Below, one piece after another: positions 7,446 to 58,738 of a stretch of DNA of 64,000 nucleotides (position 1 is the first letter of the stretch; each line of letters starts with the position of its first letter). The notes under the pieces were generated by a model. It was not told the DNA's origin and made no database searches. It saw nothing but the letters and a program-made list of their open reading frames with translations. The DNA is from Halalkalicoccus subterraneus. GTDB lineage: Archaea > Halobacteriota > Halobacteria > Halobacteriales > Halalkalicoccaceae. Position numbers and translations under genes: made by a program. The DNA lies in NCBI RefSeq assembly GCF_003697815.1, contig NZ_RDQG01000015.1, positions 1 through 64,000 on the forward strand, read 5' to 3'.

Positions 7446-7530
7446 AATTCACTGGGTTAGCTTTCTATTCTATCGTCGTCATGCTGTTTTATACTACAGT
7501 GGCTTTCACCTGTCTGGCAAGGCAGACATC

Positions 7531-7662
7531 TCATGCTTGCGGTGGCACTACTGTCCTGAGCGAGCGAGGAACCCCCGTCTCGGAGCCGACCAACGGGAGG
7601 CAAGAATACGGCGTTACTTGCTCGCGAGCAAGGGTTCCGGTCGTGAGCTGTGGCACGTCTCA
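7531..7662 (+). repeat. RepB copy 1 (about 110-130 bp structured repeat)
   Basis: One of six dispersed copies. The core reads GAGGAACCCCCGTCTCGG, then CAACGGGAGGCAAGAATACG, GCGTTACTTG and AGGGTTCCGG. Outer bases GGAACCC and GGGTTCC can pair. This copy and the one at 17431 also share flanks (GGTGGCACTACTGTCC and GTGGCACGT). It is possibly a right end or guide-RNA-like part of an IS200/IS605 (TnpB-type) element; no transposase is present. Confidence 0.75.
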
Positions 7663-7712: not shown

Positions 7713-8402
7713 TCACTCCAGTTGCTTGACTACGATAGCAATGAGACTAGCCGGCAGGTTTCCTGTTATGTGTGCCGCAGTACTTGCGCAGGTTCCTAAT
7801 CGGTGACGAACGAGACCGAAAATCGAACCCAGCCCAAATAGCATCGTAATCCGGTTAAGAGAGCGATCGACGATAGCATGTTTAAGACTGAATGATAGAC
7901 TGGTGAGAACGATCCCAGTTGTCGTACCGAACCGTTCGACGAAGGCCGTCTGAATAATTCCGCGCCAAACAAATTCCTCAACGATAGGTACGATAATCCC
8001 GTTTACAACAACCAGTAAGGAAGCAGCGGTGGTTGAGGTATCCTGCGTGACTATTTCGGTATTTTCTATACTTCCAAATAGAAGACGGTCGATTTGTGTC
8101 GTTATACTTAGGGAGGCTAGCCCGGCAACACCGGCAATAATCCCACCGCCGATAGCTCGAGGCGTCCATTGGTAACCTCGGTACTCCTGCTCAAATCCCA
8201 TTTGGTTCCCAATTCGGGCGATAACCCATCCCAGTAGAGGTATTGTTGCAAGTGAGACGAGCATGTCTCCGGTGAGGTCCTCGTCGAATTTTCTTATCCG
8301 GGATACAAGGATCCGGCGCGTGATAACCTCAACTGACGTCCAGAGACCTACGCCAAGTAAGACAAGAAGAAGTGGACGGCGCTTCCCGCGGGTGTCATTC
8401 AT
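7713..8402 (-). CDS. CPBP (CAAX/ABI) intramembrane protease-like protein
   Basis: A CPBP-family membrane protein. The motifs are VEEFVWRG (EExxxR), FSLKH (FxxxH) and HITGN (HxxxN), so the catalytic set is complete. I prefer the ATG at 8402 (MNDTRGKRRPLLL, 229 residues) over the upstream ATG at 8489. A TTAATAT box sits 22-28 bases before 8402, as expected for a leaderless haloarchaeal transcript, and the longer form would overlap the divergent cysteine-rich ORF. The role could be processing of, or immunity to, that peptide; this is inference from family and position. Confidence 0.88.
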   Translation of the reverse strand: MNDTRGKRRPLLLVLLGVGLWTSVEVITRRILVSRIRKFDEDLTGDMLVSLATIPLLGWVIARIGNQMGFEQEYRGYQWTPRAIGGGIIAGVAGLASLSITTQIDRLLFGSIENTEIVTQDTSTTAASLLVVVNGIIVPIVEEFVWRGIIQTAFVERFGTTTGIVLTSLSFSLKHAIVDRSLNRITMLFGLGSIFGLVRHRLGTCASTAAHITGNLPASLIAIVVKQLE

Positions 8403-8470
8403 ATCGGCAAGAAAATTGGTTGAGATATTAACCTTTCCCTGTAGTCGATTTAGAACTCGATTGTCGAGGA

Positions 8471-8626
8471 ATGGTCGAATATAGCGCATGTGTAGGCTGT
8501 GGCGGTGCCTGTCCTGGGTATCCAGGGCCGTGTGCTGTATGCTTGTTGACGCTCTGTAGTCGTGCTTTCAATAGTTGCTGTGACGACTACGGACCGGCGT
8601 GCGTCGACTGCGCTACGACACTATGA
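8471..8626 (+). CDS. Cysteine-rich 51-residue peptide, halocin-like candidate
   Basis: A short ORF (ATG 8471, TGA 8624-8626) of 51 residues with 10 cysteines, spaced in pairs and triplets: CVGCGGAC, PGPCAVC, SCCDDYGPACVDC. Cysteine is very rare in haloarchaeal proteins. A run of ten in 40 residues recalls halocin C8-type peptides, which also carry ten cysteines and a YG near the C-terminal end; the sequence itself is not clearly the same. No separate secretion signal is visible. It is divergent from a CPBP gene (69 bases between starts) and is followed by a hairpin at 8635. It could also be the surviving end of a longer precursor gene. Confidence 0.5.
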   Translation: MVEYSACVGCGGACPGYPGPCAVCLLTLCSRAFNSCCDDYGPACVDCATTL

Positions 8627-10671: not shown

Positions 10672-10756
10672 GAAATACTGCTTTGTTGTATACCTTGCTC
10701 ATCCTCCACCTCTACTTCCCAAACAGCAAGTGGTCTTCTCGTGCGTCGGTATAACG

Positions 10757-10870
10757 ACTGTCCCGAGCGAGCGAGGAATCCCCGTCTCGGAGCTGACTGA
10801 AGGGAGGTGAGAATACGGCGTTTCTTGCTCGTGAGTGAGGGTTTCAGGAGTTAGCTGTGGCGCGTATCAG
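10757..10870 (+). repeat. RepB copy 2
   Basis: GAGGAATCCCCGTCTCGG, AAGGGAGGTGAGAATACGG, CGTTTCTTGCTCG, then GAGGGTTTCAGG and GTGGCGCGTATCAG. The core of RepB with a few changes in the arms. Confidence 0.7.
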
Positions 10871-11809: not shown

Positions 11810-12544
11810 TCAAAAGGCCGTAAAGTAGGTTGTGAGAAACAGTGTTGCATTGTAGAGCCCATGAGCCAGTATCGGCAGAGACAGATTGTTGAACCATTCA
11901 TAAAGGGCACCCATTACTAAACCGAGTGAAAACGGCGCAATACTCAACAAGACGATAGCTCCGACTCCGCCAGTGTATCCGATTGCATGTGGAAGAACAA
12001 ACAGGAGGGAAGCAATAACGATTGCAGCGGATGCTCCCATGCTTTGTGAGAGTCTGCCCTGAATGACGCCCCGAAAGAGATACTCTTCAGCGGGCCCGAT
12101 GAGAACCACCGAGAGAACTACCAAGACGAGAACCATCTCCGGGCTCCCCGTGAGCAGCTGTTGATCAACGCGTCCGTATTGAATCCCTGTTGTGGAGCTT
12201 ACAATCTCGATTATGAGAGGGATGGCAAGCATACCGAGTGCACTCGCTACAATCCAGACAGCCTGGTACTTGGTTGGTATTTTGATTGATATCGTTTCAC
12301 TGAGCCATCGGCGGGCGTAGATCCAGCCGGTGATAGCGTAGCCTGCTTCTGAGAGGATGAATAGCGCGGTTAACGCGACGATGCTTGTTCCCCCGAGGAG
12401 AAGCGCTGGAACTGCGAGGATACCGCCCAAAACCGTCCCACCAACCACCAAAAGAACTCCAACTATAATAGCGCGAAGACGACCAGTCCAACTATCTGGT
12501 GAACGTGAGTCTGGTCGTTCGCTTGATTGCTGAACTGTGGACAT
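11810..12544 (-). CDS. CPBP (CAAX/ABI) intramembrane protease-like protein
   Basis: A 244-residue multi-pass protein with a polar 20-residue head (STVQQSSERPDSRSPDSW) and the complete CPBP motif set: GPAEEYLFRG (EExxxR), FVLPH (FxxxH) and HGLYN (HxxxN). It is convergent with the XRE operon. It is as diverged from the other CPBP proteins here as they are from each other, so these are independent family members rather than recent duplicates. Substrate unknown. Confidence 0.9.
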   Translation of the reverse strand: MSTVQQSSERPDSRSPDSWTGRLRAIIVGVLLVVGGTVLGGILAVPALLLGGTSIVALTALFILSEAGYAITGWIYARRWLSETISIKIPTKYQAVWIVASALGMLAIPLIIEIVSSTTGIQYGRVDQQLLTGSPEMVLVLVVLSVVLIGPAEEYLFRGVIQGRLSQSMGASAAIVIASLLFVLPHAIGYTGGVGAIVLLSIAPFSLGLVMGALYEWFNNLSLPILAHGLYNATLFLTTYFTAF

Positions 12545-17402: not shown

Positions 17403-17430
17403 TCCAGAGTAATCCCACCATCAGGCGGCC

Positions 17431-17565
17431 ATCTCGTGCTTACGGTGGCACTACTGTCCCGAGCGAGTGAGGAACCCCCGTCTCGGAGCCGACCAACGGG
17501 AGGCGAGAATACGGCGTTACTTGCTCACGAGTGAGGGTTCCAGTAGTGAGCGTGGCACGTATCAG
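17431..17565 (+). repeat. RepB copy 3
   Basis: GAGGAACCCCCGTCTCGG, CAACGGGAGGCGAGAATACG, GCGTTACTTGCTC, GAGGGTTCCAG. It shares left and right flanks with the copy at 7531 (GGTGGCACTACTGTCC; GTGGCACGT), so the repeat unit there is about 130 bp. Confidence 0.75.
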
Positions 17566-24934: not shown

Positions 24935-26590
24935 ATGCAGGAACTGTCTACATCAATCGGCGAAGCACAGGGCAGCAAGACAAGTCGCTCGACCATCCTT
25001 GGACCACCACAAGCTGTTGCAGCAGCACTCCGTACGACACTCGGTCCGAATGGCATGGATAAGATGGTCGTCGAGCAAAATGGGACCGTCATCGTCACTA
25101 ACACCGGTTCGAGCATTCTTGACCGAGTGGATGTCGAAGCCCCGACTGCGCGAATGGTGACGGAGGCCACGGAGGTACAGGCTCAGACAGTCAGTGATGG
25201 GACGACAACGACTGTCTTGCTCGTTGGGGAACTACTCAATGCTGCGGAGTCGCTACTCGAAAACGGACTCCATCCGACCTCAATTGTGGAAGGGTACGCA
25301 AAGGCGACAGCACATACCCGAGAACGTCTACAAGAATATTCGACGCCGGTATCGGAACATAACAGTGATCGCCTCCGTTCCATCGCAGCGATGACAGTTA
25401 CCGGTCGATGGGATGAGACCGCAACGGCGTTGTTCGCTGATCTCGCTGTTTCTGGACTGCAATCAGCCGATTTCAATAGCTCCCAGCTGACTCTTCACGC
25501 CCATCCTGGTGGGAGTCTCGATGACTCCGAAGTCGTCGACGGCATCGCTGTAGATATGGACACCTCGTCGACTTCCATCGACGTATTCGAAACTCCCGAG
25601 CTACAGGCGTTCTCGAACCCACGGATCGCTCTCGTCGATGCAGAAATCTCCCCGGGAGACACGGATGTGTCGGGAAAAGTGACTATCGAGGACGTTGAAG
25701 ATCTCGATGAGGTCCGCGAATACGAGCGGAACAACCGATCGGCAGTAATTCAATCAATCCATGAACTCGACGTCGACGTACTCTTCTGTCAGAAATCGAT
25801 TGACGATGCGGTTCAGACAACACTCTCGCACTCAGGAGTGCTCACAGTCGAGCGCACTCGCCAGGACGAGCTCGATGCGATATCGCGAGCAATCGGTGCA
25901 GAGACCGTCACATCTGCCGTTGACCTTGATAGCGGTTCTCTCGGTAAGGCGGGAAGCGTTTGTCAGGAGACAATTGGCGGGGCCGAGTCCCTGCTCGTCA
26001 TGGACTGTCCAGAAGAAAAACACGCGTCACTGGTCCTACGTGGTGGGACACCACACGTCTCCGATGAGATCAACCGCGTCGTAGCTGACTGTGTAGACGC
26101 CGTCCGGCTTGCACTCCGTGTAGGGAGCGTACTTCCTGGGGGCGGCGCAACCGCGATGGCACTTTCGCGAGACGTACTGAGGTATGCAGACAGCATCGGC
26201 GACCGCGAGCAATACGCGGTCAAAGCATTCGCGAACGCTCTCGAGTGTATCCCCCGGACACTTGCCGAGAACGCGGGACGAGACTTAGTCAACACCCTCG
26301 TCACGCTTCGGAATCAGCATCACGATGGCGCTACGTCCGTCGGCGTTGACGAATCTGGAGAACTTCGCGACATGCGCAAATCGGGTGTGTTCGAACCGAT
26401 AACAGTACTCGATGCATGTCTCGGGAACGCGTTGGAAACGAGCGCGCTCGTACTCCGAATCGATGACGTCCTCGAATCAGGGAGCGAAAGCGGAGGTGAA
26501 CACGCCGGACACGACCATAATCACGGACAGGGGGGTGAACCACACACGGAGAGCGACATGAACGGGTACCCGTGGGCGCTCAGTCACTGA
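24935..26590 (+). CDS. Divergent thermosome (group II chaperonin) paralog with His-rich tail
   Basis: A 551-residue chaperonin-family protein with thermosome landmarks: LGPNGMDKM (37-44), SDGTTTTVLL (87-96) and LPGGGATAMAL. It is atypical. The usual NDGATI is NTGSSI, so Thr57 replaces the aspartate that corresponds to the catalytic Asp52 of GroEL. GDGTT is SDGTT. The C-terminus, normally a short Gly-rich end, is long and rich in histidine (GGEHAGHDHNHGQGG). It may have weak ATPase activity or bind metal; it might serve the formamidase beside it. The last point is inference from position. Confidence 0.88.
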   Translation: MQELSTSIGEAQGSKTSRSTILGPPQAVAAALRTTLGPNGMDKMVVEQNGTVIVTNTGSSILDRVDVEAPTARMVTEATEVQAQTVSDGTTTTVLLVGELLNAAESLLENGLHPTSIVEGYAKATAHTRERLQEYSTPVSEHNSDRLRSIAAMTVTGRWDETATALFADLAVSGLQSADFNSSQLTLHAHPGGSLDDSEVVDGIAVDMDTSSTSIDVFETPELQAFSNPRIALVDAEISPGDTDVSGKVTIEDVEDLDEVREYERNNRSAVIQSIHELDVDVLFCQKSIDDAVQTTLSHSGVLTVERTRQDELDAISRAIGAETVTSAVDLDSGSLGKAGSVCQETIGGAESLLVMDCPEEKHASLVLRGGTPHVSDEINRVVADCVDAVRLALRVGSVLPGGGATAMALSRDVLRYADSIGDREQYAVKAFANALECIPRTLAENAGRDLVNTLVTLRNQHHDGATSVGVDESGELRDMRKSGVFEPITVLDACLGNALETSALVLRIDDVLESGSESGGEHAGHDHNHGQGGEPHTESDMNGYPWALSH

Positions 26591-31636: not shown

Positions 31637-32482
31637 ATGGTAAACGCCATACAACGAGCGACGACTTACGTCCCAAAAGGCGGCGTCGGGAAAACGACAT
31701 CAACAGCGCACATTGCAGTATCGGCATACAACGATCATGGCCTCGACACACTCCTAATCGATCTCGCGGGGACCCAGAATGACCTCGCAACTCAGTTCGG
31801 ACTAGCCAACGATGTACTCGACCCTGACGCGCCGATTTCTGCGGTATTCAGCGAAAATTGGTCGTTCATCCGTGAGAACATCGACAACGTGTTCGAGCGC
31901 ATGGTTTTTGAAACGGAGGAAGGACCAGATCTCATCCCTGCTGACAACGGTCTCGGGGCCGAGGATAACAACCTCGCAAACGTTCCACGGGAGAACCGCT
32001 ACAACCGCCTCGAGAAGTTCATCACTGATGAAGTAGCATCACGGTACGATCTAGTATTGCTCGACTTGCCCGGCAAGGAGGACAACATCACGATCAACGG
32101 TCTGTTTGCCGCCGAAAACGTAATCGCACCGCTGAAGCCAGGCGAGTTCGAGCGGAAGCAACTCGAAAATCTCCAGCGCGAGCTGGCGGCGATTCGAGAC
32201 GACGGCGACCATGATGCACAGCCAATGTTGCAGCTCGTCTTCGCGACGATGGTCGATTCAACCACGAACCTCGCAGACGAGTTTACAAACGTACTCGCCG
32301 AGGAATATTCTGATATTTCCGGCCCGCCCGTCTCAGAGTCGGCGAATATTGGAAACGAACAGGCGAACGGACGAACACTTTTTGCCCTGTCCGACGACGA
32401 ACTCTATGATACGGGACGGCGCGCACGCGAGGCGTATCGACAGCTCACGACCAGTCTACTCGAGCGATTGGAGGCCAGATAA
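31637..32482 (+). CDS. parA: ParA-type partition ATPase
   Basis: A 281-residue member of the ParA/MinD ATPases. The deviant Walker A KGGVGKTT (14-21), the Walker A-prime region LLIDLAGTQND and the switch YDLVLLDLPGKEDN are in order. It segregates plasmid copies together with a small DNA-binding partner. That partner is likely the next gene, which starts 2 bases after this stop. GTATC-type iterons on both sides of the pair mark the partition site. Confidence 0.92.
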   Translation: MVNAIQRATTYVPKGGVGKTTSTAHIAVSAYNDHGLDTLLIDLAGTQNDLATQFGLANDVLDPDAPISAVFSENWSFIRENIDNVFERMVFETEEGPDLIPADNGLGAEDNNLANVPRENRYNRLEKFITDEVASRYDLVLLDLPGKEDNITINGLFAAENVIAPLKPGEFERKQLENLQRELAAIRDDGDHDAQPMLQLVFATMVDSTTNLADEFTNVLAEEYSDISGPPVSESANIGNEQANGRTLFALSDDELYDTGRRAREAYRQLTTSLLERLEAR

Positions 32483-33330: not shown

Positions 33331-33840
33331 ACCCTATCGTTCGAGTGAATTAGCGTCCACGAGAGAAAAATCGTTGTTCGATCCCAGTACCGGATGACAA
33401 GGCTCAGTGACGTGGTGGCCGGAGCTGACGACGGTGGTTAGGACGTCCGCCCGGAACAGGCCGGCTGCGACGCGCTGTGTAAGTCCGCTGCACTGGCGAT
33501 CCTGTGTCGATGCCGGTCGTGAGATAGTGTCAGGTCGAACCACTCGTTCAAGTGAGTGTTTTTATTTATAAACACCCCCTCCCCATCGTTCGAGTGAATT
33601 GACTCATATGAGTAGGGGGGTCGCCCACGACCCCCCTTTGCACCGCCTTCTGCTCTGCAATCTATTTCTAGTACGGGTTTGGTTGTATGGGTGGTGTGAT
33701 AAGTATTTCTCTACCTAGAGTCTTGTCTATGACACCCCACCCCCATCTTTGTCTGCAAATTCACTTGAACAGCGGGGTGGGGGTGTTAGGACGATTGGTT
33801 TAAGACAAATCATGCACTTGAAACACTTGAACGGGTGGTC
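33331..33840. other. Replication origin with ORB-type repeats
   Basis: Three ORB-like elements: TTCACTCGAACGAT (minus strand) at 33331-33351 and 33571-33600, the latter with the G-run GGGGAGGGGG, and TTCACTTGAACAGC with GGGGTGGGGG (plus) at 33760-33785. The last two face each other across an unwinding-type stretch. Also present are CACTTGAACGGGTGG (33825-33839), the palindrome ACTCATATGAGT (33602-33613) and GGGGGGTCG-CCCA-CGACCCCCC (33615-33636). Inverted ORBs beside orc1 are the standard haloarchaeal origin. Confidence 0.85.
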
Positions 33841-33883: not shown

Positions 33884-35086
33884 ATGGGACAGTTCGATTT
33901 CACCCCTGGCAATCACCCATTCCGCAATCGCAACGCACTCCTCGACGATTACACGCCAGACGAGATGGTCGGTCGTGATAACGAGCTCGAGGAGTACCAC
34001 GGTGCTCTCAAGCCAGCGATCAACGGCTCTCAGCCCGACAACATCTTCCTCTACGGGAAAACCGGCGTTGGCAAGACTGCTGCGACCAACTTCCTGCTCG
34101 CTCGTCTCGAGAACGCCTCGGTCGAACACGACATCACGATCCACACGAAGATCATCAACTGTGACGGCCTCAATACGAGCTATCGGGTCGCCGTCGAGCT
34201 CGTCAATACCTTCCTGTCTAACGATTCAATCAGCGAAACCGGCCACTCGCGAAGCAGTGTCTATGAGAAGATGTGGGACGCGCTCGATGCACTCGGCGGG
34301 CTATTCGTTATTGTCCTCGACGAGATCGACCATCTCCAAGATGACAGTCTTCTCTATCAGCTCTCACGAGCACGAGAGAATCATAACCTCACGAACGCCC
34401 GCGTCTCCGTCGTCGGCATCAGCAACGATCTCAGTTTTCGCGATCGCCTCAGCCCGAAGGTCCGCTCGAGTCTCTGCGAGCGAAGCATCAATTTTCCGGC
34501 GTACGATGCTGACGGGCTTAGTGAGGTGCTTGCTCAGCGCCAATCTCTTGCGTTTCGCAACGACACCGTCGAGACGGACGTTATCCCGCTCTGTGCGGCC
34601 TATGGCGCCCAAGAATCGGGTGATGCACGGAAGGCACTCGACCTCCTGTTGAAAGCGGGTGACGTCGCCCATGACGCGAATGCCGATTTAGTCCGAGCCG
34701 AGCACGTTCGTCATGGACGTGAATTGATCCAACGCGAGGAGATCACACGTGGGATCCTTGGCCTCAACTCTCACGAACGGATCCTGCTCTATGCGCTCGC
34801 GACATTCGAGGCTGCCGAGGAGACGCCGACACGATCACGTGATCTCTACGAACGCTATGAGCGCTTTGTCGAACAGACCGGCACCGATGTCCTCACAAGC
34901 CGGTGGATGCACGACCATCTCGACGAACTCGAAATGCTCGGCCTCGTCACCATCGAAAAGCGCAACGAAGGCTCGACTGGTGGACAGTACAAAACCGCCG
35001 GGCTGAATCAAGACCTCGAATCCGTTCTCAATGCTCTTGAGGAAACTATCGCCGACGTCGGTGTTCACTCTACGATCGCAGGGTGA
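33884..35086 (+). CDS. orc1: Orc1/Cdc6 replication initiator
   Basis: A 400-residue AAA+ initiator that binds ORB repeats and loads the MCM helicase. Walker A GKTGVGKT is at 58-65, Walker B VIVLDEIDH at about 142-150, and sensor 1 at VVGISNDL. The arginine-rich RLSPKVRSSL and a C-terminal winged helix (SRDLYERYERFVEQTGTDVL to LEMLGLVTIEKRNEGSTGGQ) follow. I use ATG 33884 (MGQFDFTPGN), because the longer open frame from 33749 runs through ORB repeats. It defines this molecule as a replicon or a replicon fused into a larger one. Confidence 0.93.
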   Translation: MGQFDFTPGNHPFRNRNALLDDYTPDEMVGRDNELEEYHGALKPAINGSQPDNIFLYGKTGVGKTAATNFLLARLENASVEHDITIHTKIINCDGLNTSYRVAVELVNTFLSNDSISETGHSRSSVYEKMWDALDALGGLFVIVLDEIDHLQDDSLLYQLSRARENHNLTNARVSVVGISNDLSFRDRLSPKVRSSLCERSINFPAYDADGLSEVLAQRQSLAFRNDTVETDVIPLCAAYGAQESGDARKALDLLLKAGDVAHDANADLVRAEHVRHGRELIQREEITRGILGLNSHERILLYALATFEAAEETPTRSRDLYERYERFVEQTGTDVLTSRWMHDHLDELEMLGLVTIEKRNEGSTGGQYKTAGLNQDLESVLNALEETIADVGVHSTIAG

Positions 35087-35748: not shown

Positions 35749-35925
35749 ATGCGCTACTACTGTTTGACGTGCACCTGGACAGCAGCTACAGATGAACCAA
35801 TGAAGAACGAATCAGGGCAGGCAGCTATCGACCATCACGTTGCGACGGGCCGTTCGATTGTCTCCAAGAGAGTCTGCCCGGATACAAGCAAGAGTAACTA
35901 TCGAGTACAGCAGGTTTTGAAGTAA
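35749..35925 (+). CDS. Small zinc-finger-like protein
   Basis: A 58-residue protein (MRYYCLTCTWTAATDEPMKN) with CxxC near the start, AIDHHVATG in the middle and a later cysteine. The spacing suggests one metal site. The protein at 43323-43514 has the same head (MRAWCEKCDWSAS, MDHFKQSGH), so they form a small family. The last 20 codons and the sequence after the stop recur at 43815, where the rest of the gene is absent. Confidence 0.6.
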   Translation: MRYYCLTCTWTAATDEPMKNESGQAAIDHHVATGRSIVSKRVCPDTSKSNYRVQQVLK

Positions 35926-35979
35926 GTCTCAGGCAGTCATATCTGGTCGGCAGTCATCCCATATTTGCAGTAAATACGA

Positions 35980-36075
35980 CTATCCCGAGCGAGCGAGGAA
36001 TCCCCGTCTCGGAGCGACCAGCGGGAGCGAGAATACGGCGTTTCTTGGAGCACTGCGAGGGTTCCGATGTGCTGA
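35980..36075 (+). repeat. RepB copy 4
   Basis: GAGGAATCCCCGTCTCGG, GCGGGAGCGAGAATACGG, CGTTTCTTGG and CGAGGGTTCCG. Together with the preceding 75 bases (from about 35904) it is duplicated at 43815-43995. Confidence 0.75.
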
Positions 36076-36285
36076 CTGCGGGACCGAAAACAACGCACCT
36101 CAGGTAGAGATCAACGAAGAACTGTGTTCTCGGACGGAGGGAAACAACACCCATGTGAGTAACGTTATTTCGATGGGTGATGGCGGTATTTCGGGTATCC
36201 CAGTTTCTGAAACACTCTCCGAACACAACACACCCGCCTGATAGTCAGTTCCATAACCATGGTTCGGTCTCAGAGAGATTCGCGG

Positions 36286-43814: not shown

Positions 43815-43995
43815 CCCACGAGAAGTACAGCAGGTTTTGAAGTAAGTCTCAGACACTCATATCTGGTCGGCGGCCATCCCATAGTTGCGGTACATATGAG
43901 TGTCCCGAGCAGCGCGAGAACCCCCGTCTCGGAGCGACCACCGGGAGCGAGAATACGGCGTTTCTTGGAGTGCTGCGAGGGTTCTGGTGTACTGG
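43815..43995 (+). repeat. RepB copy 5 with duplicated upstream flank
   Basis: GTACAGCAGGTTTTGAAGTA, ATATCTGGTCGGCGGCCATC match 35904 onward, followed by the RepB core GAGAACCCCCGTCTCGG, CCGGGAGCGAGAATACGG, CGTTTCTTGG, CGAGGGTTCTGG. So the unit here is about 170 bp and includes the end of the zinc-finger gene at 35749. Confidence 0.75.
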
Positions 43996-44135
43996 TTCTG
44001 GGGATGAAAGAATATATCTCAAAAGGAGATTGGCGTAGGGGACGGGACTCGCTCGATTACCTTGGCCACCTAGCGACCGCAAGACATTCTCGGTCGGAAC
44101 GTTAGCACTTTCTGACGGCGTAGTGGCGATACAAC

Positions 44136-45302
44136 ATGGCCTCTGACGTGTCCGAAACTCCTGCTGATTCCGGAGATGACTATAAACGCTTGCTGGCACT
44201 GTTGAACGACTACGGCATCTCCGAACGTCTTCAACGGCTGCTCGCACTCCAGCTGGCCGGCGGCTGTACTCGGACCGAGAACGGCAAAACTGTCCGCGGT
44301 GAGATCAATCTCCAGCTGGTCGTCGATCCAATTGTAGATCAGACTGGGCTCCTCGAGCTTCTTTCCGAACTGACGCCCACCAGTACGACGATCAACGGGA
44401 CCGACGTGAGCTTCAGCGGGTTGTTCGCCAATGCCTCCGGACGCTCGCTTGAAAATGGTGTCCTCCTTGATGATCAGTACGACTGGTATTTCATCTATCA
44501 AGCGGGCGATCTCAGCCACCAATCGGTGCGGGCACTCGGTGGCCTGCTCGATTCGGGCACTCACACTGTGACCAAATCCGGCATCCACGAGCATCTCGAA
44601 AACCACGCGAGTCATCTCCTGATTGATACGCCGAAATACGGCCATTGGGATTCGTATGAGCCACTGATTGAGCAGATCTCACCGTACGGTGAGATTTCTT
44701 CGAAGGTCGACCTCGTCGCGGCGAGTTCCTCGCCTGAGCCACTCTCGTACGACAACGAGGCGTTCACTGTCGATGAGGCCGCAGAGTATCTCGACGCTGT
44801 GCGGATGATCACGCCGACAGTCTCCGACGCGCTGGCCGAGGAGATCGCCGCCTCCACTCACCACCTGAACGAGGCCATTGAGGAGGCAGGCGTCTCGCTG
44901 CAGATCCATCCTAACGCGGTGCGGCGATTAGTCGAGGCGAACGCCCGTCTCACCACCTCTGAGACAGTTGAGGAACGCCACCTCACCGACGTCTTGGATC
45001 TAATCCAAGACTGTCTCGAGCAGCTCGGCGTCGCCACTGAGGAGGAGGAGGGTGAATACGACGTTGAGGTAAACGAGACTGGACAAGCGAAGGTGGATCA
45101 CGAACGCGTGACGGCGATCAAGACGATCGTCCACGACCTGCAGGAGATAGACGACGGCAGGCTCGGTGCCCCCGCGGAGAAAGTTTACCAGCGTGCTGAG
45201 CAGGAGGGCATGCCACCGAAGCGGACCAAGCACGAGATTCAGAAGCTCCGCGACAAGGGCGAGATCTACTCGCCCGACCAGGACTACCTCCGACTTGTGT
45301 GA
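44136..45302 (+). CDS. MCM-like protein without ATPase motifs
   Basis: A 388-residue protein that follows the MCM helicase ATPase domain and C-terminal winged helix but lacks the usual N-terminal DNA-binding half. Each catalytic site is changed: Walker A (GDPGTGKS in MCM) is DPIVDQTG at 64-71, Walker B (DELDK) is QAGDL at 122-126, sensor 1 is IDTPKYG, and the arginine finger SRFD is SKVD at 189-192. Flanking family features are kept (TVRGEIN, KSGIHEHLENHASHLL, YEPLIEQI, and the end GMPPKRTKHEIQKLRDKGEI). It cannot be an active helicase; it may be a structural partner or a regulator of MCM. Confidence 0.8.
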   Translation: MASDVSETPADSGDDYKRLLALLNDYGISERLQRLLALQLAGGCTRTENGKTVRGEINLQLVVDPIVDQTGLLELLSELTPTSTTINGTDVSFSGLFANASGRSLENGVLLDDQYDWYFIYQAGDLSHQSVRALGGLLDSGTHTVTKSGIHEHLENHASHLLIDTPKYGHWDSYEPLIEQISPYGEISSKVDLVAASSSPEPLSYDNEAFTVDEAAEYLDAVRMITPTVSDALAEEIAASTHHLNEAIEEAGVSLQIHPNAVRRLVEANARLTTSETVEERHLTDVLDLIQDCLEQLGVATEEEEGEYDVEVNETGQAKVDHERVTAIKTIVHDLQEIDDGRLGAPAEKVYQRAEQEGMPPKRTKHEIQKLRDKGEIYSPDQDYLRLV

Positions 45303-50914: not shown

Positions 50915-51015
50915 ATGATTTCTTGCCAGCGAGCGCAGGCACAAGCGCTGGCAGGAGCTGGCCAGAGGATACGTCACTCCCGGCAGACGGTCCACTCGTG
51001 TTTTGTGGCGGGCTA

Positions 51016-51110
51016 CTATCTCGAGCAGTGCGAGAACCCCCGTCTCGGAGCCGACCGACGGGAGGCGAGAATACGGCGTTACTTGGAGCGCCGCGAGGGT
51101 TCCGGTAATA
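51016..51110 (+). repeat. RepB copy 6
   Basis: GAGAACCCCCGTCTCGG, GACGGGAGGCGAGAATACGG, CGTTACTTGG and CGAGGGTTCCGG. The upstream 100 bases (CGAGCGCAGGCACAAGCGCT) are not shared with the other copies. Confidence 0.75.
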
Positions 51111-51481
51111 CTATTCTAGTTAACATTTTTTTTGGATAGCTAATGAGTGTGTTTTGATACCCGGTCTCTGAACCATTTCGGCTTCTATAGTTATCCAGGT
51201 ATACGACCATTCTTAGATAGTCTGGTATGCTACCTTCTCGAAGGGCAGGTGACCGAAACCTTCTAGCCAATCGATATATCGTCATTTAATGTGGCAACAT
51301 TAGTATGAACACGACAGATGAGAGGCGAATAGTGACCAAACCAATGCGGATTTCAACTTACCTTCTCGCCTTCTCGATCTCGAAGTGAGTCTACTACACG
51401 CGACATGATAAAATACCATCAATTCAGTATAGTCTAACGAAAGACTATATACTCTGGTTGAAAGCATCTCAAACAGTACTA

Positions 51482-51678: not shown

Positions 51679-54600
51679 ATGCAGACAGCACTTAGCTACC
51701 GAACGAACCGAGACCTCTTTTCTAACTACTATCTTGACGAGCACCTCCCTGAAACCGAAGAATGGGACGAGATTAGCGAGGACGAGCTCAGCGAGGCATA
51801 CGAGGAAATCAACGAGCTCTGGGAGCGCGAAAAGAATACAGCACCCAAGCGTAACGAATCCCAGCTCGAAGAGAAGTTCATCCGGCCGATGTTCCGGAAG
51901 CTGGGTATTCCATTCGAGGTCGAAGAGAGTACCAGCCGGACCCAGCGTCGGCCCGATTACGGCTTCTTCGAATCAGAGCAAGCGGCTCGTGGCGCGTTCG
52001 AACGTCGTGAAGAGGGTGGCGACTTCTACGAGAATACCGTCGCCGTTGCAGACGCGAAACGCTGGGGACGCCCGCTCGACACGCGTGGGAGTGGTGAACA
52101 TGAGCGTGACTTCGAGAACCCCAGCTATCAGATTCATGTCTACCTTCAAGAGACAGACGCCCGCTGGGCGGTTCTGACTGACGGACAGAAATGGCGGCTG
52201 TACTATGGCCCCACGAGCCATCGGCTGGACTCGTACTACGAGATCGACCTTCCGACTGTCCTGGAAAAGGGCGATATCGAGGACTTCAAATATTTCTACT
52301 TGTTTTTCCGCCACGAAGCATTTCTCAAGGACGCAAGCGGAGATAGTTTCCTGGACGACGTCTACGGGGAGAGCAACGTCTTCGCACAGGAGTTAGGGGA
52401 GGACCTCCAGGACAACATCTACGACGCGATTAAGGTCCTCTCTGAAGGATTCCTCCAGTATCCTGAGAATGATCTCAACGAGGATGATCTCGATCGGATA
52501 CACGATAGCTCACTCATCTACCTGTATCGGCTGATTTTCGTCCTGTATGCCGAGAGTGAAGGACGTGACCTGCTCAATACGGACAACGAGATCTACGAGC
52601 AGTCATACAGCCTGAACTCACTCAAACAGGAGATTGCCGAGGAGCTCGATAGCGCGGATCCTAAGTACCGAAACTGGCAGGATAACCTCTGGTCCCGCTT
52701 AGAGGAGCTGTTCAAACTCATCGACCAAGGGAGTAAGTCTCGCGGTATTCCGGAGGAAGACCTCTATATTCCAGCCTACAACGGTGGGCTCTTCCGTACA
52801 AATCCAGATGCAAACGACAGCCAAGAAGCACGGTTTCTCGCCAATCACGAGGTCGGTGACGCGTATCTCGCCCGCGTAATCGAACTGCTTACTCGTAGTC
52901 AGAGCGAGGGTGGAAAGATATTCGTCGACTACTCGTCACTCGACGTGCGCCACCTCGGAAGCATCTATGAAGGGCTCCTTGAGTATCAGCTCAACGTAGC
53001 CGACGAGCCGTTGGCACTCGACGATGGAGAGTACGTAATTCCCGACGAAGACGATGAGATCATCGTGGAAGCAGGAGAGGTCTATCTTACAACAGGCTCT
53101 GGTGAGCGGAAAGCGACTGGGTCCTACTACACACCGGAATACGTCGTCGAATATATCGTCGATAATACGCTCGAACCACTGGTTGACGACATTCGCGAAG
53201 ACCTCGTTGGACAGAGTGCGCGTGGCGACGAACGAGGGTTTGCCGAGCAGTTCGCCAACCGTGTATTCGATCTGAAGGTTCTCGATCCAGCAATGGGGAG
53301 CGGGCATTTCCTTACGAACGCTGTCGACTACCTGGCCCGCGAAATCATCGACGCTCAGGAGAAGCAGGCTGCACAGCAGGGAATCGAGACTGTCGACGAA
53401 GACCACGACATTAACTGGGCTCGCCGCCAAGTTGCCCAGCGTTGTATCTACGGAGTAGACCTGAACCCGCTCGCCGTCGAGTTGGCCAAGGTATCTCTGT
53501 GGCTGCGAACGCTCGCCGCTGAACAGCCGCTTGCCTTCCTTGATCATCACCTGAAGACCGGAAACTCGCTCGTTGGAAGTGACATTGAAGAGATCGAGGA
53601 ACTAGAGTCAGAAGGTGGTGGTGACGAGCAGAACGCTTCTCTCGCAGACTTCGGTGTAGCTCGGAAAGGGACTATTGAGCAGCTGATGCGGATCTACGAG
53701 GATTTCATCGCTATTGAGAACCAGGAACTCGCGGACGTCAAGGAGATGGAGTCCAAGTACGACGAGTTTGAGCGAAACAAGCTTCGACAGCGGCTGGAGT
53801 CGATGGCGAACGTTCAGGTGGCCAAACGGGTCGGTCTGAGTAATGTTCCCTTAGACGCTCAAAAGCGGATGGCTGCTGCTCTAGAAGACGATCAGAAGTG
53901 GAGCGACTTGGCAGCTTCACAATGGTTTCAAGATTCACAAAGATGGGGCGATAAAGCTCGGTATTTTCACTGGAAATTAGAATATCCAGAAGTATTCTAT
54001 AATCAGGATGGTTCTCCAAAAAATGAACCCGGATTCGACGCCATTGTCGGTAATCCTCCCTATGTTGACTTCAAAACACTTCCACAAAGTCAAAAAGACT
54101 TGATTGAGCCTCTCCATTCAACCTGCAATGGGAAATTCGACGTCTATATACCCTTTATGGAGGATGCTATCCGATTGTCCAGAAGAATGGTTTCATTCAT
54201 TGTTCCCTCAATGTTTATGAAGAGGGACTACGGCCGGGATCTCCGTCAATACTTAGTCAACAATACTTCACTGAGGACTCTTCTTGATTTCCAACATCTA
54301 CAGATTTTTGGTGATGCCACTAATTTCACCTGTACAGTAATATTCGATAGGCAATCTTCTAATACTGCATATTATAAGAAATTAAGTAAAGACAAGCAAC
54401 TTGCTGACTTACTTGAATACTCAGAACCGGATTACTCCGAGATCCTCACCGACGTTCTAACTGCTGATCCTTGGCAATTCCTTACCGAAAACCAAGTCCA
54501 AGCCCTTGGAAAGCTGAGGGAACAGTCTGTCTCCCTTGAAGACGTTACTGCTGGAATTCGACAAGGATTAGTGACAAGTAAGGACTCCGTGTTCCTACTT

Positions 54601-55815
54601 TCGGAAGACGAGGTAAGTGAACGCAATCTTGAAACCGAGCTTTGGCGTCCACTGGCGCGCGGTGAGGATGTTTCTCGGTGGAGTATGGATAGTCCTGAAA
54701 CTAGGGTGTTCTACCCTTATACTGTAGAAGACCAACTAATCCCTGAAGAAAGGTTGGACAATGACTTCCCAAACACGTACGATTATTTGCTCAAAAAACG
54801 AGACGAGCTGAAGGGCCGATCTTACTATGAAGATGTAAATAAAGAGTGGTACGAACTTTGGCGGCCTCGTGAGACGAGTGTGTTTAGTGATGATAAAATC
54901 CTAGTTCAGGAAATCTCCGACAAGAACGTGTTCTGCTTTGATTCGGAGGGTTACTACTTCAATACGAAGGCATTTGGTATCCACCCAAAAGAGATCGACA
55001 TGAAATATCTCCTCGGTCTACTGAATTCGAGCCTGCTTGAATTCGATCTGAAAACTAGATCGGTTCCGAAGAGGGGTGGTTACTACGAATATAATACTCA
55101 ATTCCTGAAAAAATTATCAATTGTCGAAAGTCCGGAGGAAGATATAAAGGAACAAATAGTAACCGAAGTTGAGGCGGCGGTCCAAGCGAGCACTACCTAT
55201 AGACAGCTTAATCTCAACCTGTTTGATTATATTGCCACATCGAGTTCTAGCTTCGATGGCCAGGAGTTGAGTGAACTGTATACACCTTCGGAAGGGCTTG
55301 CTACGTCAACGTTAGTCGAGGATGAGTCTACGAGGGAAGGATTACGCATTCAGTCTGGTAACGTTGTAAAAAAGCCTGGAAAGTTGCAACTCCAAGTTAC
55401 AGTTCGGTATAAACCGGGCGACCCCGAAAACCATGATATTGATAGGTGGGGTTACACAGGGAGTGAGCCACTGGCAGCAATGGACTTTATTAGCGTATCT
55501 CCGGAGGAAGAAGCCCTAATTACTGAATTTGTGCCGTATGCAATTGAAGAAGCAAGTGGGTTTGCTAACTTTAGAAGAAACGCGACTCAGACAAAAACTC
55601 TGATTGACCGTCTTGAACAGCTTACCCTTCCCGAAACGGACAGAACTCAGGCAGACCTACAACGATACATAGATGTAAAGAAGGAAGCATCCGATCTGAA
55701 AACAGAGGTGAAGGAGGCTGAGGTAGAACTTGACGAATTAGTATATGAGTTATATGATATAACTAAAGAAGAACAAGAAACTATCGAATCCTGGTTATCG
55801 AATGACCGACTTTGA
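51679..55815 (+). CDS. Type IIG-like restriction enzyme / N6-adenine methylase
   Basis: A 1378-residue fused enzyme. The N-terminal nuclease part has RRPDYGFFES (P92-D93) and VAVADAKRW (D125-x-K127), a PD-(D/E)XK site. The methylase has motif I VLDPAMGSGHFL (about 534-545) and motif IV NPPYVDF (about 791-797), the latter typical of N6-adenine methylases of the Eco57I/PglX kind. A target-recognition region follows (about 930-1200), and the end has coiled coils. Codons become more AT-rich in the recognition region (about 53.9-55.7 kb), a usual sign of domain exchange. It overlaps the helicase gene by 14 bases. Confidence 0.9.
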   Translation: MQTALSYRTNRDLFSNYYLDEHLPETEEWDEISEDELSEAYEEINELWEREKNTAPKRNESQLEEKFIRPMFRKLGIPFEVEESTSRTQRRPDYGFFESEQAARGAFERREEGGDFYENTVAVADAKRWGRPLDTRGSGEHERDFENPSYQIHVYLQETDARWAVLTDGQKWRLYYGPTSHRLDSYYEIDLPTVLEKGDIEDFKYFYLFFRHEAFLKDASGDSFLDDVYGESNVFAQELGEDLQDNIYDAIKVLSEGFLQYPENDLNEDDLDRIHDSSLIYLYRLIFVLYAESEGRDLLNTDNEIYEQSYSLNSLKQEIAEELDSADPKYRNWQDNLWSRLEELFKLIDQGSKSRGIPEEDLYIPAYNGGLFRTNPDANDSQEARFLANHEVGDAYLARVIELLTRSQSEGGKIFVDYSSLDVRHLGSIYEGLLEYQLNVADEPLALDDGEYVIPDEDDEIIVEAGEVYLTTGSGERKATGSYYTPEYVVEYIVDNTLEPLVDDIREDLVGQSARGDERGFAEQFANRVFDLKVLDPAMGSGHFLTNAVDYLAREIIDAQEKQAAQQGIETVDEDHDINWARRQVAQRCIYGVDLNPLAVELAKVSLWLRTLAAEQPLAFLDHHLKTGNSLVGSDIEEIEELESEGGGDEQNASLADFGVARKGTIEQLMRIYEDFIAIENQELADVKEMESKYDEFERNKLRQRLESMANVQVAKRVGLSNVPLDAQKRMAAALEDDQKWSDLAASQWFQDSQRWGDKARYFHWKLEYPEVFYNQDGSPKNEPGFDAIVGNPPYVDFKTLPQSQKDLIEPLHSTCNGKFDVYIPFMEDAIRLSRRMVSFIVPSMFMKRDYGRDLRQYLVNNTSLRTLLDFQHLQIFGDATNFTCTVIFDRQSSNTAYYKKLSKDKQLADLLEYSEPDYSEILTDVLTADPWQFLTENQVQALGKLREQSVSLEDVTAGIRQGLVTSKDSVFLLSEDEVSERNLETELWRPLARGEDVSRWSMDSPETRVFYPYTVEDQLIPEERLDNDFPNTYDYLLKKRDELKGRSYYEDVNKEWYELWRPRETSVFSDDKILVQEISDKNVFCFDSEGYYFNTKAFGIHPKEIDMKYLLGLLNSSLLEFDLKTRSVPKRGGYYEYNTQFLKKLSIVESPEEDIKEQIVTEVEAAVQASTTYRQLNLNLFDYIATSSSSFDGQELSELYTPSEGLATSTLVEDESTREGLRIQSGNVVKKPGKLQLQVTVRYKPGDPENHDIDRWGYTGSEPLAAMDFISVSPEEEALITEFVPYAIEEASGFANFRRNATQTKTLIDRLEQLTLPETDRTQADLQRYIDVKKEASDLKTEVKEAEVELDELVYELYDITKEEQETIESWLSNDRL

Positions 55816-58738
55816 GGTCGGCGACCACGTCAAGTTCGCCGGCGGACAGGGCGAAATCACGAAAATAGAGAACCGCCCTAATGGAGGTCAACTCCTTCAT
55901 GTCTACACCACAGAGGGACAGCTCCGAAAATTCCCAAGCGGCTTACCCCATATCGAGCGGATCGACTCCGTCGTTGACCGGCTCGCAGCCAAGCAGGTTG
56001 ACGACCCGCTCCACCACGATCTCCGAGAGCGTGCGACTCGTCTCGACCTTGCCTATCGGTACGACCGGTTCCTCTCGCTGACGAACAACCGCATCGAGAT
56101 CGAACCCTATCAGGTCCAAGCCGCCTACGAGATCCTGAACTCCTACGACCACCGCTATCTCGTCGGCGACGAGGTCGGCCTCGGAAAGACCATCGAGGCT
56201 GGGATCGTCATTGAGGAACTCATCGCCCGAGGACGCGCCGAACGGGTACTTATCGTCGCCCCCGCACCGCTGGCCGTCCAGTGGCAAGAGGAGCTCCGCG
56301 AGAAGTTCGACCGGAACTTCATCCTCTATGATCGCAACACCGTTCAGACGTATCGTCAGTCACATCCGAACCAGAACGTCTGGCAACAGGAAGACCGTAT
56401 CATCACGTCGATCGACTTCGCCAAACAGGATGACGTACTCGAAGCCCTGCACAATCTCGAAGAGGAATGGGACATTGCCGTGTTCGACGAGGCGCACCAC
56501 CTGACTGCCCGCCGTTCGAGCGATGACTCGACTGAACGCACACAACGCTACATGGTTGGCGAGGCCGTCGCGAACAACTCGAATGCGCTTCTCCTGCTCA
56601 CTGGGACACCACACAAAGGAAAATCTGACCAGTTCTATCACCTTGTTAGCCTCCTCGATCCGTATCGGTTCAGCCACGAGTCCCAGATCACCCCCAAAGG
56701 TTTGGAGGATCTGATGATCCGCCGGCTCAAGGACGATATGTACGAGACCGACGGGACTCGGATGTTTCCCGAGAAGAACATTGAGGCACTTCCTGTTGAG
56801 ATGACTCCCGAGGAGCGCGAGCTCTACAACGACGTGACTGAATACATCCGCGAGTACTACAACCTCGCACAGAACGAGGAGAACCAGGCTGCCGGCTTCA
56901 CGATGGTTATCTACCAGAAACGGCTCGTCTCGAGCATTCACGCCATCCGGAAATCGCTCGAAAACCGAATGCGTGCGATCCAAAATGATGCCGTTGCCGA
57001 AGATCTACCCGACGACGTTCAGGAACTCATCCCGCGCTACAGCACGGAGCCCGAGACGCTCACCGATGCCGAACGTGCTCGCGTTGAGGAGGCCCTTGAA
57101 CACGTCACGATCACGCTCAATCGATCACAGATAGATGCGGAACTCGGACGCGTCAAGCAGCTCTGGCGGCAGGCAAAGGCGATCGAGACCGATTCCAAGG
57201 CAGAACTCCTCCGGGAATTCGTCGAGCGCATTCTCGCCGAGGACCCTGACGAGAAGATCCTGATCTTCACTGAGTACACGGACACGCTCAAGTATCTGCG
57301 TGATACCGTCTTTCCAGAACACGATATTGCGCAGGTGTACGGCGATCTCGAACAAGAGCGTCGGCGTCGAGAGATGGAGAAGTTCGAGGAGGAAGCAAAT
57401 CTGATGTTGGCGACCGACGCCGCACAGGAGGGTCTCAATCTCCAGTTCGCCCACATTATGGTGAACTACGACCTGCCGTGGAATCCGATCCGGATCGATC
57501 AACGAATGGGTCGACTCCACCGCTATGGGCAGGACCGGACCGTCGAGATACGTAACCTCTTCTTCGATAACACGCGGGAAAGCGATATTCTCGAACTCCT
57601 TCTCGAGAAGACCGATCAGATCGAGGCCGATCTCGGGATGCGATCAGACGTACTCGGTCGAATTCTCGAGAACGTCGACCTCGACGAGACGATCATGGCC
57701 GCTATCGCGGAAGGCCGACCAACCGAAGAGGTAGTTGCCGACATCGAAGCGACGATCGAAGAGCGAAAGCAAGCGCTCGAAACGGTCGAAAACGACTTTC
57801 TCATCCGCGATCGGTTCGATCTCTCTGATGAAGATCGAGAAATCTTGGAAATCATCGAGCGGAGTCGCCACGGCGAGGTGGGTGAAGACGACATTGAAGC
57901 GCTCGTCCGGGAGTTCTTCGACGAGTTCGGTGGGACGATCAAAGGAGTACGTCCTGGACCTGCTCGATCGAGTGGTGATATCTTCCGTCTTGGGATCCCA
58001 AACGTCCTCACCGGAGACCAAATCAAGAGCCACTACGACACGGCAACGTTCACGAAAGATGTCGCGATGGAAGAAGACGAGGTCGACTTCATCGCACTCG
58101 ATCATCCGCTAGTCCAGTCGCTTATCGACTACTGTCTCGATTCGAACCGTGTCCAGGGCCAAATCGCCGTGAAAGTAGCGGCGAACCCCGAGGTGACACC
58201 GGGGATTCTGTTTAACTACCGGCTTGGATACGTGTCGGGTACAGGTGATGCGATCACTGAGAAGTTCGTTAGGCTGTACGCGACGCGTGAAGAGACGATC
58301 ACAACAGAGATACCAACGTTCGAGAAAACGCTGTCGCCGAACGACAATGTCGTTAATTCGGGCTCAACCCTTGATCAACTTGCATCGAAAGCATCGCAAC
58401 TCTACGATGTAGCCGAAGCGAGAGCGTGGGACGAGGTCGAATCGTTTGCGGATGAAGCTCGAACCGAACGGGAACGAGAGATCGGAATCAAACGCAAGCA
58501 CGCTGAACGCTACTTTACGGATCAGATCGAGGAGTGGGAAGAGCGTCTTGAGACATATCAGCAGCGTACTGAGCAGGGAGCTGATATGAGCGCACCGATT
58601 GGGAATGCCCAGCGTGAGCTCGAACACCTTCGACGACAACGAGACAAAGAATTGAGCCAGCTCGAAGAGGAGCAGCACGTCACACCAGAAGAGCCAGAGT
58701 TAGTCACCGCTGCCCTTGTAATTCCTTCAGAGGAGTGA
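55802..58738 (+). CDS. SNF2-family helicase (DrmD-like) of the restriction operon
   Basis: A 978-residue SF2 translocase of the SNF2 type. Walker A GDEVGLGKT (122-130), DEAHH (229-233), TGTPHKGK (motif III region) and the second RecA part LMLATDAAQEGLNLQFAH with RIDQRMGRLHRYGQ (motifs V and VI) are all intact. The C-terminal third is charged and coiled coil. The pair with a large N6-adenine methylase resembles the DrmD/DrmMI part of class 1 DISARM, but the core drmABC genes are not here, so it is better seen as a two-gene restriction system. It starts inside the end of the methylase gene. Confidence 0.9.
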   Translation: MTDFEVGDHVKFAGGQGEITKIENRPNGGQLLHVYTTEGQLRKFPSGLPHIERIDSVVDRLAAKQVDDPLHHDLRERATRLDLAYRYDRFLSLTNNRIEIEPYQVQAAYEILNSYDHRYLVGDEVGLGKTIEAGIVIEELIARGRAERVLIVAPAPLAVQWQEELREKFDRNFILYDRNTVQTYRQSHPNQNVWQQEDRIITSIDFAKQDDVLEALHNLEEEWDIAVFDEAHHLTARRSSDDSTERTQRYMVGEAVANNSNALLLLTGTPHKGKSDQFYHLVSLLDPYRFSHESQITPKGLEDLMIRRLKDDMYETDGTRMFPEKNIEALPVEMTPEERELYNDVTEYIREYYNLAQNEENQAAGFTMVIYQKRLVSSIHAIRKSLENRMRAIQNDAVAEDLPDDVQELIPRYSTEPETLTDAERARVEEALEHVTITLNRSQIDAELGRVKQLWRQAKAIETDSKAELLREFVERILAEDPDEKILIFTEYTDTLKYLRDTVFPEHDIAQVYGDLEQERRRREMEKFEEEANLMLATDAAQEGLNLQFAHIMVNYDLPWNPIRIDQRMGRLHRYGQDRTVEIRNLFFDNTRESDILELLLEKTDQIEADLGMRSDVLGRILENVDLDETIMAAIAEGRPTEEVVADIEATIEERKQALETVENDFLIRDRFDLSDEDREILEIIERSRHGEVGEDDIEALVREFFDEFGGTIKGVRPGPARSSGDIFRLGIPNVLTGDQIKSHYDTATFTKDVAMEEDEVDFIALDHPLVQSLIDYCLDSNRVQGQIAVKVAANPEVTPGILFNYRLGYVSGTGDAITEKFVRLYATREETITTEIPTFEKTLSPNDNVVNSGSTLDQLASKASQLYDVAEARAWDEVESFADEARTEREREIGIKRKHAERYFTDQIEEWEERLETYQQRTEQGADMSAPIGNAQRELEHLRRQRDKELSQLEEEQHVTPEEPELVTAALVIPSEE

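Follow-up and report, generated by a model that had tools for sequence, protein, structure and literature searches.

A short, ATPase-dead MCM paralogue with a host-like winged helix in Halalkalicoccus subterraneus and other haloarchaea

The window analysed here is the first 64,000 nucleotides (positions 1-64000) of a contig of 77,418 bases (NZ_RDQG01000015.1, G000:C15) of the haloarchaeon Halalkalicoccus subterraneus. The plasmid sequences nearest to it are mostly from Halalkalicoccus. It carries a gene for a dead paralogue of the minichromosome maintenance (MCM) helicase, referred to below as WIN, together with an orc1/cdc6 gene, repeats resembling origin recognition boxes (ORB) and a partition ATPase (Table 1). 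WIN belongs to the MCM superfamily by homology. Its match to MCM spans the start of the AAA+ domain through to the C-terminus, with the Pfam MCM P-loop domain at E=1e-14 (residues 30-195), MCM_lid at E=2.5e-4 and the NCBIfam MCM model at E=1.7e-29, the best stretch being residues 260-387. An archaeal MCM C-terminal winged helix of about 60-70 residues with the MCM signature is present; for Pfam MCM_WH_arc alone, the score is under the cut-off of that model. The top phmmer match in the PDB is an archaeal MCM (E=7e-22). The PDB matches listed by Foldseek for the AlphaFold model of WIN are all MCM (best E=1e-14), although the model is confident in the lid and winged helix and weak in the AAA+ core (predicted local distance difference test (pLDDT) values of 35-45 at approximately residues 82-189). 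A model of the Natronorubrum relative described below was too poor for use (pLDDT 55).

Aligned against the host's only intact MCM (700 aa, contig C30), WIN is missing the entire N-terminal tier, and with it both the zinc-binding cysteines and the OB fold. All four hallmarks of a replicative helicase, the Walker A Lys, the Walker B Asp-Glu, the sensor 1 Asn and the SRF arginine finger, are replaced: GDPGTGKS has become VDPIVDQT, AVDELDK has become FIYQAGD, AANPKYG has become IDTPKYG and LISRFDL has become ISSKVDL. No GxxxxGK[ST] motif occurs along the whole WIN protein. Around these dead sites, RGE, Lys147 of the presensor-1 (PS1) hairpin, PKYGxxDxYEP, Asp192 and Arg264 are kept. The helix-2 insert is gone, through an 8-residue deletion common to the dead proteins. 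A preliminary description of this DNA had proposed that the protein aligns through the MCM ATPase and winged-helix regions, with all four catalytic motifs replaced and the neighbouring family residues retained; the Pfam, NCBIfam, phmmer and Foldseek matches bear out the first part and the alignment with the host MCM the rest. The absence of the N-terminal domain, the loss of the helix-2 insert and a winged helix with a history unlike that of the AAA+ part go beyond what was described.

Table 1. Coordinates in the window of the dead MCM gene, its parts and the replication and partition features of the contig.
Feature	Positions	Strand	Evidence
Dead MCM paralogue (WIN), 388 aa, N-terminal domain absent	44136..45302	+	Single open frame, MCM matches, aligned family and host sequences
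ATPase-dead AAA+ core and lid, ~residues 29-304, family-specific chassis	44220..45047	+	Motif losses, unique common deletions, clade 100/100
Walker A replaced by VDPIVDQT (GDPGTGKS in host), residues 63-70	44322..44345	+	Alignment with host MCM and family
Walker B replaced by YFIYQAG (AAVDELD in host), residues 118-124	44487..44507	+	Alignment with host MCM and family
PS1 hairpin, Lys147 kept in all family members and MCM	44568..44582	+	Alignment
Sensor 1 replaced by IDTPKYG (AANPKYG in host)	44622..44642	+	Alignment with host MCM and family
Arginine finger replaced by SSKVDLV (ISRFDLI in host)	44697..44717	+	Alignment with host MCM and family
Linker and winged helix, residues 305-388, host-lineage-like MCM C-terminus, breakpoint ~residue 305	45048..45299	+	Nucleotide and amino acid identity to host MCM
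ParA-type partition ATPase	31637..32482	+	Protein domain match
Probable origin of replication: inverted pair of 30-nt ORB-like repeats containing a G/C string (33571-33600 and 33758-33787); the repeat core recurs at 33332-33351 and 33539-33558	33571..33787
orc1/cdc6 of the window replicon	33884..35086	+	Cdc6_lid 7e-23, Cdc6_C 1e-18

WIN is not alone in these losses, a possibility raised in the preliminary description. There are eight intact members in four haloarchaeal families, all of them ATPase-dead and of the same architecture. Besides WIN, they are found in the genomes G202 and G129, in Natronorubrum texcoconense (on a 60-kb contig), in Haloferax profundi (a tandem pair close to an integrase), and on pNPA70 of Natrinema pallidum and CP031299 of Natrinema thermotolerans, where both are annotated 'hypothetical protein'. 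Six of the eight are in the set of 394 haloarchaeal genomes sampled (the G numbers; G000 is the window's own genome), and family-wide searches of three of the member families found no further members. With a profile of all eight, these six have E<1e-150 and ordinary MCM reaches 1e-57 at best, and the gap between them holds nothing but the two decayed copies; as the scored members had built the profile, the gap rather than the E-value carries the weight. With a profile from WIN and the G202 protein only, all six other dead proteins outrank every full-length MCM; the reverse profile, from the other six, does not separate WIN and G202 from full-length MCM. In the AAA+ and lid tree, the eight dead proteins are on one side of a 100/100 branch. 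Three deletions, of two residues (YG), of the 8-residue helix-2 insert and of approximately 40 residues behind the former finger, are present in both dead sub-groups and in none of the other aligned MCMs. The alignments and trees thus indicate a discrete, rare family whose dead state is ancestral rather than recent, because the deletions are common to its members. They also indicate a single descent for the AAA+ and lid chassis, whose ancestor was an MCM in which the N-terminal tier, the helix-2 insert and every ATPase residue had been lost.

Two other readings of the family were considered. A viral origin was rejected because IMG/VR, searched with two queries, gave no relatives and the sole match for WIN in the phage collection is one full-length viral MCM. 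A split MCM, in which the dead part is paired with a separate N-terminal-domain protein, was rejected because N-terminal-domain-only MCM genes are absent from the window contig, from G117:C1 and from pNPA70. Such genes are present on two dead-MCM replicons, the N. thermotolerans plasmid and G129:C7, but they are also fairly common where the dead gene is lacking: at E<=1e-60 they occur in 10 of the 394 genomes, none of which is a dead-MCM genome. The pairing is kept only as a lead. The two genes on dead-MCM replicons encode approximately 315 aa (L179:1480-2421 in CP031299 and L186:1471-2424 in G129:C7), and each is directly behind a similar gene, of approximately 440-470 aa, without known function. 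Two further MCM-like proteins are encoded on plasmids: a 291-aa dead AAA+-like MCM relative on a long branch, annotated 'hypothetical', in Haladaptatus caseinilyticus (L192:2830-3705), and a stand-alone MCM winged-helix protein of 121 aa in Hap. pallidirubidus (L194:2872-3237).

The retention of an open frame in WIN had been taken to suggest a selected role, and the substitution patterns agree with selection. On the WIN branch there are 28 synonymous and 30 non-synonymous polarised changes, giving an omega of approximately 0.34 (p=5e-5 against neutrality). The intact G202 orthologue, which comes from the same genus, is 387 aa, 52% identical in amino acids to WIN and equally dead, has a Nei-Gojobori ratio of 0.27 with WIN. 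The same ratio is 0.32 between WIN and a decayed copy on contig C85 of its own genome (0.16 for the AAA+ part), and the dead genes on the Natrinema pallidum and N. thermotolerans plasmids have an omega of 0.24. For intact MCM within the same genus the ratio is 0.03-0.09, so the constraint on the dead MCM, although real, is looser than that on the helicase. The omega values and the ancestral losses common to the family together rule out recent decay, and on this evidence WIN is not a pseudogene. Decayed copies do exist, two of them in the genus of WIN. The copy at G000:C85 is frameshifted and has stops, that at G217:C17 is 5'-truncated, both with 87% nucleotide identity to WIN, and a third remnant is on a Natrinema versiforme plasmid.

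The AAA+ part and the C-terminus of these proteins have different relationships to the host MCM. Nucleotide similarity between the dead gene and the host mcm starts at approximately codon 306 (WIN nt 916) and reaches or nearly reaches the end, with 71% identity in WIN and 82% in G202. At the amino acid level, WIN is 26% identical to the host MCM in the AAA+ and lid and 59% (58.8%) identical across residues 304-388; the G202 orthologue has 25% and 79% identity to its own MCM in the AAA+ and lid and in the C-terminus, respectively. In the C-terminus tree, WIN and G202 are among own-genus MCMs (97/96), and grouping the dead C-termini as one clade is rejected by the approximately unbiased (AU) test (p=0.0002). 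For all seven lineages, from four families, the top-scoring host MCM C-terminus is from the lineage's own host family (permutation p=0.0016, the smallest value possible with 630 permutations). The adjoining lid has its best match in its own family in none of the seven (p=0.89) and the whole AAA+ part in three, which is a weak signal (p=0.035); the permutation controls for the AAA+ and lid exclude loci holding the dead gene. The WIN C-terminus scores 107 bits in its own family and does not exceed 80 in any of the other three member families tested; the corresponding values are 139 and 98 for G202 and 77 and 50 for copy b of H. profundi. Local duplication of the host's own mcm, which the C-terminus alone would suggest, is rejected for the AAA+ part, as a tree that derives the WIN and G202 AAA+ from the MCM of their own genus fails the AU test (p=0.008). 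The simplest reading of these sequences is a dead chassis that has repeatedly captured the tail of the host MCM, by recombination with the 3' ends of host mcm genes.

The preliminary description had placed the gene on a replicon, and the features in Table 1 are consistent with this. The window Orc1/Cdc6 has AAA+, lid and winged-helix domains. Its open frame starts at a TTG (33749), but one of the ORB-like repeats covers that start and an in-frame ATG is present at 33884. The inverted repeat pair just upstream is 83% complementary. An orc1 gene with upstream repeats is the arrangement described for haloarchaeal origins (PMC7776575), and because both the domains and the repeats match that layout, the window contig is very likely a genuine Orc1-type replicon. 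It also encodes a TrwB-like coupling protein. The ORB-flanked origin is 10 kb from the dead mcm, and Orc1/Cdc6 is encoded on all five of the plasmid-like contigs with the dead gene (G000:C15, G117:C1, G129:C7 and both Natrinema plasmids). The 14.6-kb H. profundi contig with the dead gene does not encode Orc1/Cdc6.

In Sulfolobus, the C-terminal winged helix of MCM contacts Orc1-1 bound at ORB sites and determines the geometry with which MCM is recruited, as described in a discussion of earlier work (PMC12141716). Since the winged helix is the only host-matched module of the motor-less protein, it is possible that WIN and its relatives use it to act as decoys or adaptors at origins bound by Orc1, a reading that is favoured over a poison subunit and given a probability of about 0.45. 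The winged helix would be the working end of the protein, mimicking the docking module of the host MCM and binding Orc1/Cdc6 at origins. Without an N-terminal tier or a motor, the protein would occupy or pre-shape the docking site with no active helicase being formed, and MCM loading might be throttled or redirected as a result. This could be used for copy control of the element's own replicon or for action against the origins of the host or of rivals. Stated more generally, and more tentatively, the family may be a class of mobile-element protein that works by mimicry, in which an inert AAA+ chassis with a recaptured host winged helix competes at Orc1/Cdc6, or loads there, as a non-helicase 'blank'. 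If so, the host range of the element would be re-set through recombination with the host mcm.

Several points weigh against the decoy or adaptor role. The own family is favoured over the next by only 2-4 bits in the two Natrialbaceae lineages and in G129. The contact between the MCM winged helix and Orc1 is known from Sulfolobus and not from haloarchaea (PMC12141716). The intact G202 member is chromosomal and directly behind mcm, rather than beside an origin. Host tracking could also be neutral, if gene conversion simply continues in the one region where the two genes remain alike enough to recombine. That would leave the function open, with the gene still not a pseudogene.

Other roles would fit parts of the evidence. 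The preliminary description had suggested poisoning or tuning of the host helicase, or action with the plasmid Orc1, and of these the sequences favour action through Orc1: only the winged helix has stayed host-like, and the AAA+ part, which forms the ring interface, is no more than approximately 25% identical to the host MCM. A poison or tuning subunit would slow or block the helicase by entering the host MCM ring without an arginine finger or an ATP site of its own. The AAA+ and lid fold is kept, Lys147 of the PS1 hairpin is invariant, and so is Arg264, which aligns with the host position that we take to be the trans sensor-2 Arg. In G202 the dead gene follows the chromosomal mcm after 88 bp, in the same orientation, which would permit co-expression. 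However, the protein has no N-terminal tier, a part important for the forming of hexamers (PMC7776575), its ring-forming AAA+ hardly tracks the host and its helix-2 insert is deleted. With the ring-forming parts missing or diverged, poisoning is unlikely. A replicon-specific regulator, using the winged helix as a DNA-binding domain in a repressor, origin or partition factor independent of MCM and Orc1, seems a still poorer prospect. It would account for the kept winged helix and PS1 Lys, and a small helix-turn-helix gene is among the neighbours of the dead gene in Natrialbaceae plasmids, but there is no need for a factor acting on the DNA of the element itself to look like the MCM winged helix of its current host. 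It is improbable that the protein serves in exclusion, keeping MCM from loading at origins of the host or of plasmids and proviruses that compete with the element, as in incompatibility or superinfection exclusion; this shares the molecular logic of the decoy and would suit the patchy occurrence on plasmids and integrated elements, including the tandem copies beside the H. profundi integrase, but PADLOC has no match for the dead MCM. That the gene is a functionless, decaying remnant of an MCM duplication, its C-terminus host-like merely through gene conversion from mcm, is highly improbable despite the clear pseudogenes at G000:C85 and G217:C17 and the third remnant in Natrinema versiforme, given that three comparisons postdating the catalytic losses show open frames and omega 0.24-0.34, and that the common deletions make the dead state ancestral.

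With core haloarchaeal MCM, such as Hfx. volcanii HVO_0220, the dead family shares the AAA+ and lid fold, the PS1-hairpin Lys, PKYG and the C-terminal winged helix, the last of these 59-80% identical to own-genus core MCM in WIN and the G202 orthologue. It differs in lacking the N-terminal domain, the helix-2 insert, Walker A and B, sensor 1 and the arginine finger, and in having an AAA+ part of approximately 25% identity. Inactive MCMs are already known as a kind. Methanopyrus kandleri MCM2 (PDB 3F8T) is a catalytically inactive homologue (Bae et al. 2009, as cited in PMC3972481), and the dead family resembles it in being archaeal MCM without catalysis, here judged from sequence. In contrast to the dead family, the structure of that protein has N-terminal subdomains A, B and C, according to a figure legend (PMC4619765). 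PDB 3F8T is not among the best 60 of the 70 chains matched by the family profile, and no report of a host-tracking winged helix in M. kandleri MCM2 was found in the literature searched. A 2014 survey divided 39 haloarchaeal MCMs into 26 core and 13 outliers (Kristensen et al., PMC3972481). Four of the outliers have the N-terminal domain only, and the Walker A Lys, Walker B and SRF are present in every one of the nine that have an AAA+ domain (PMC3972481). The dead family is like these outliers in consisting of extra haloarchaeal MCMs, some of which are on plasmids, but a class without an N-terminal domain and with a dead AAA+ and a winged helix is not in that survey (PMC3972481). Nor was an ATPase-dead MCM family of this kind with a host-tracking winged helix found in the literature searched, most subscription journals being outside it.

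The plasmid MCMs of Har. sinaiiensis pHsi139 and Har. taiwanensis pNYT2, annotated 'MCM' or 'AAA family ATPase', are full length, with an N-terminal domain and helix-2 insert. Both are outside the dead-short clade, and the C-terminus of the pHsi139 protein groups with core Haloarcula MCM (98/93). These two (L059:7059-9161 in pHsi139 and L067:6960-9056 in pNYT2) and three others (L058, L061 and L063) are full-length plasmid MCMs in which the arginine finger has changed to Gln (SQFD or TQCD) and the Walker B Glu is lost; two of the five have also lost Walker A. The AU test does not reject an AAA+ tree that unites them with the dead-short clade (p=0.40), and for this reason such Gln-finger proteins may be a halfway stage to the dead-short family.

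The recruitment of MCM by Orc1/Cdc6 is poorly understood in archaea, as is the sharing of one host helicase by many Orc1-type replicons. A selected, motor-less MCM that is host-matched only in its winged helix would be a ready-made separation-of-function tool, and its existence predicts that the winged helix is a species-specific docking surface that elements exploit. It also means that haloarchaeal plasmid genes annotated 'minichromosome maintenance protein MCM' are not all helicases.

Other features of the window are of note. A dispersed repeat of approximately 90-180 bp is present in at least six copies (7520-7648, 10727-10855, 17423-17551, 35904-36089, 43824-44009 and 50985-51113), one of which (43824-44009) ends approximately 130 bp before the dead mcm. 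An Rfam scan of the window was empty, so the repeat has no Rfam match. A separate 87-nt repeat has seven copies between 72 and 16531, with 62-80% identity to the reference copy. At 24935-26590, a thermosome-like protein of 551 aa has nucleotide-binding motifs that by eye seem altered, for example VTNTGSSIL where thermosomes usually have NDGATIL; it may be another case, after the dead MCM, of a core host machine present on the replicon as a degenerate copy. A large N6-methylase, for which DrmMI is the best PADLOC match, is followed by a SNF2-type helicase (BrxHII/DrmD-like) at 51679-58738, probably a DISARM-like, BREX-like or related defence locus. Three membrane proteins, at 6064-6825, 7713-8489 and 11810-12544, resemble CPBP/CAAX-type proteases in their E-E-x-x-x-R motifs, as judged by eye.
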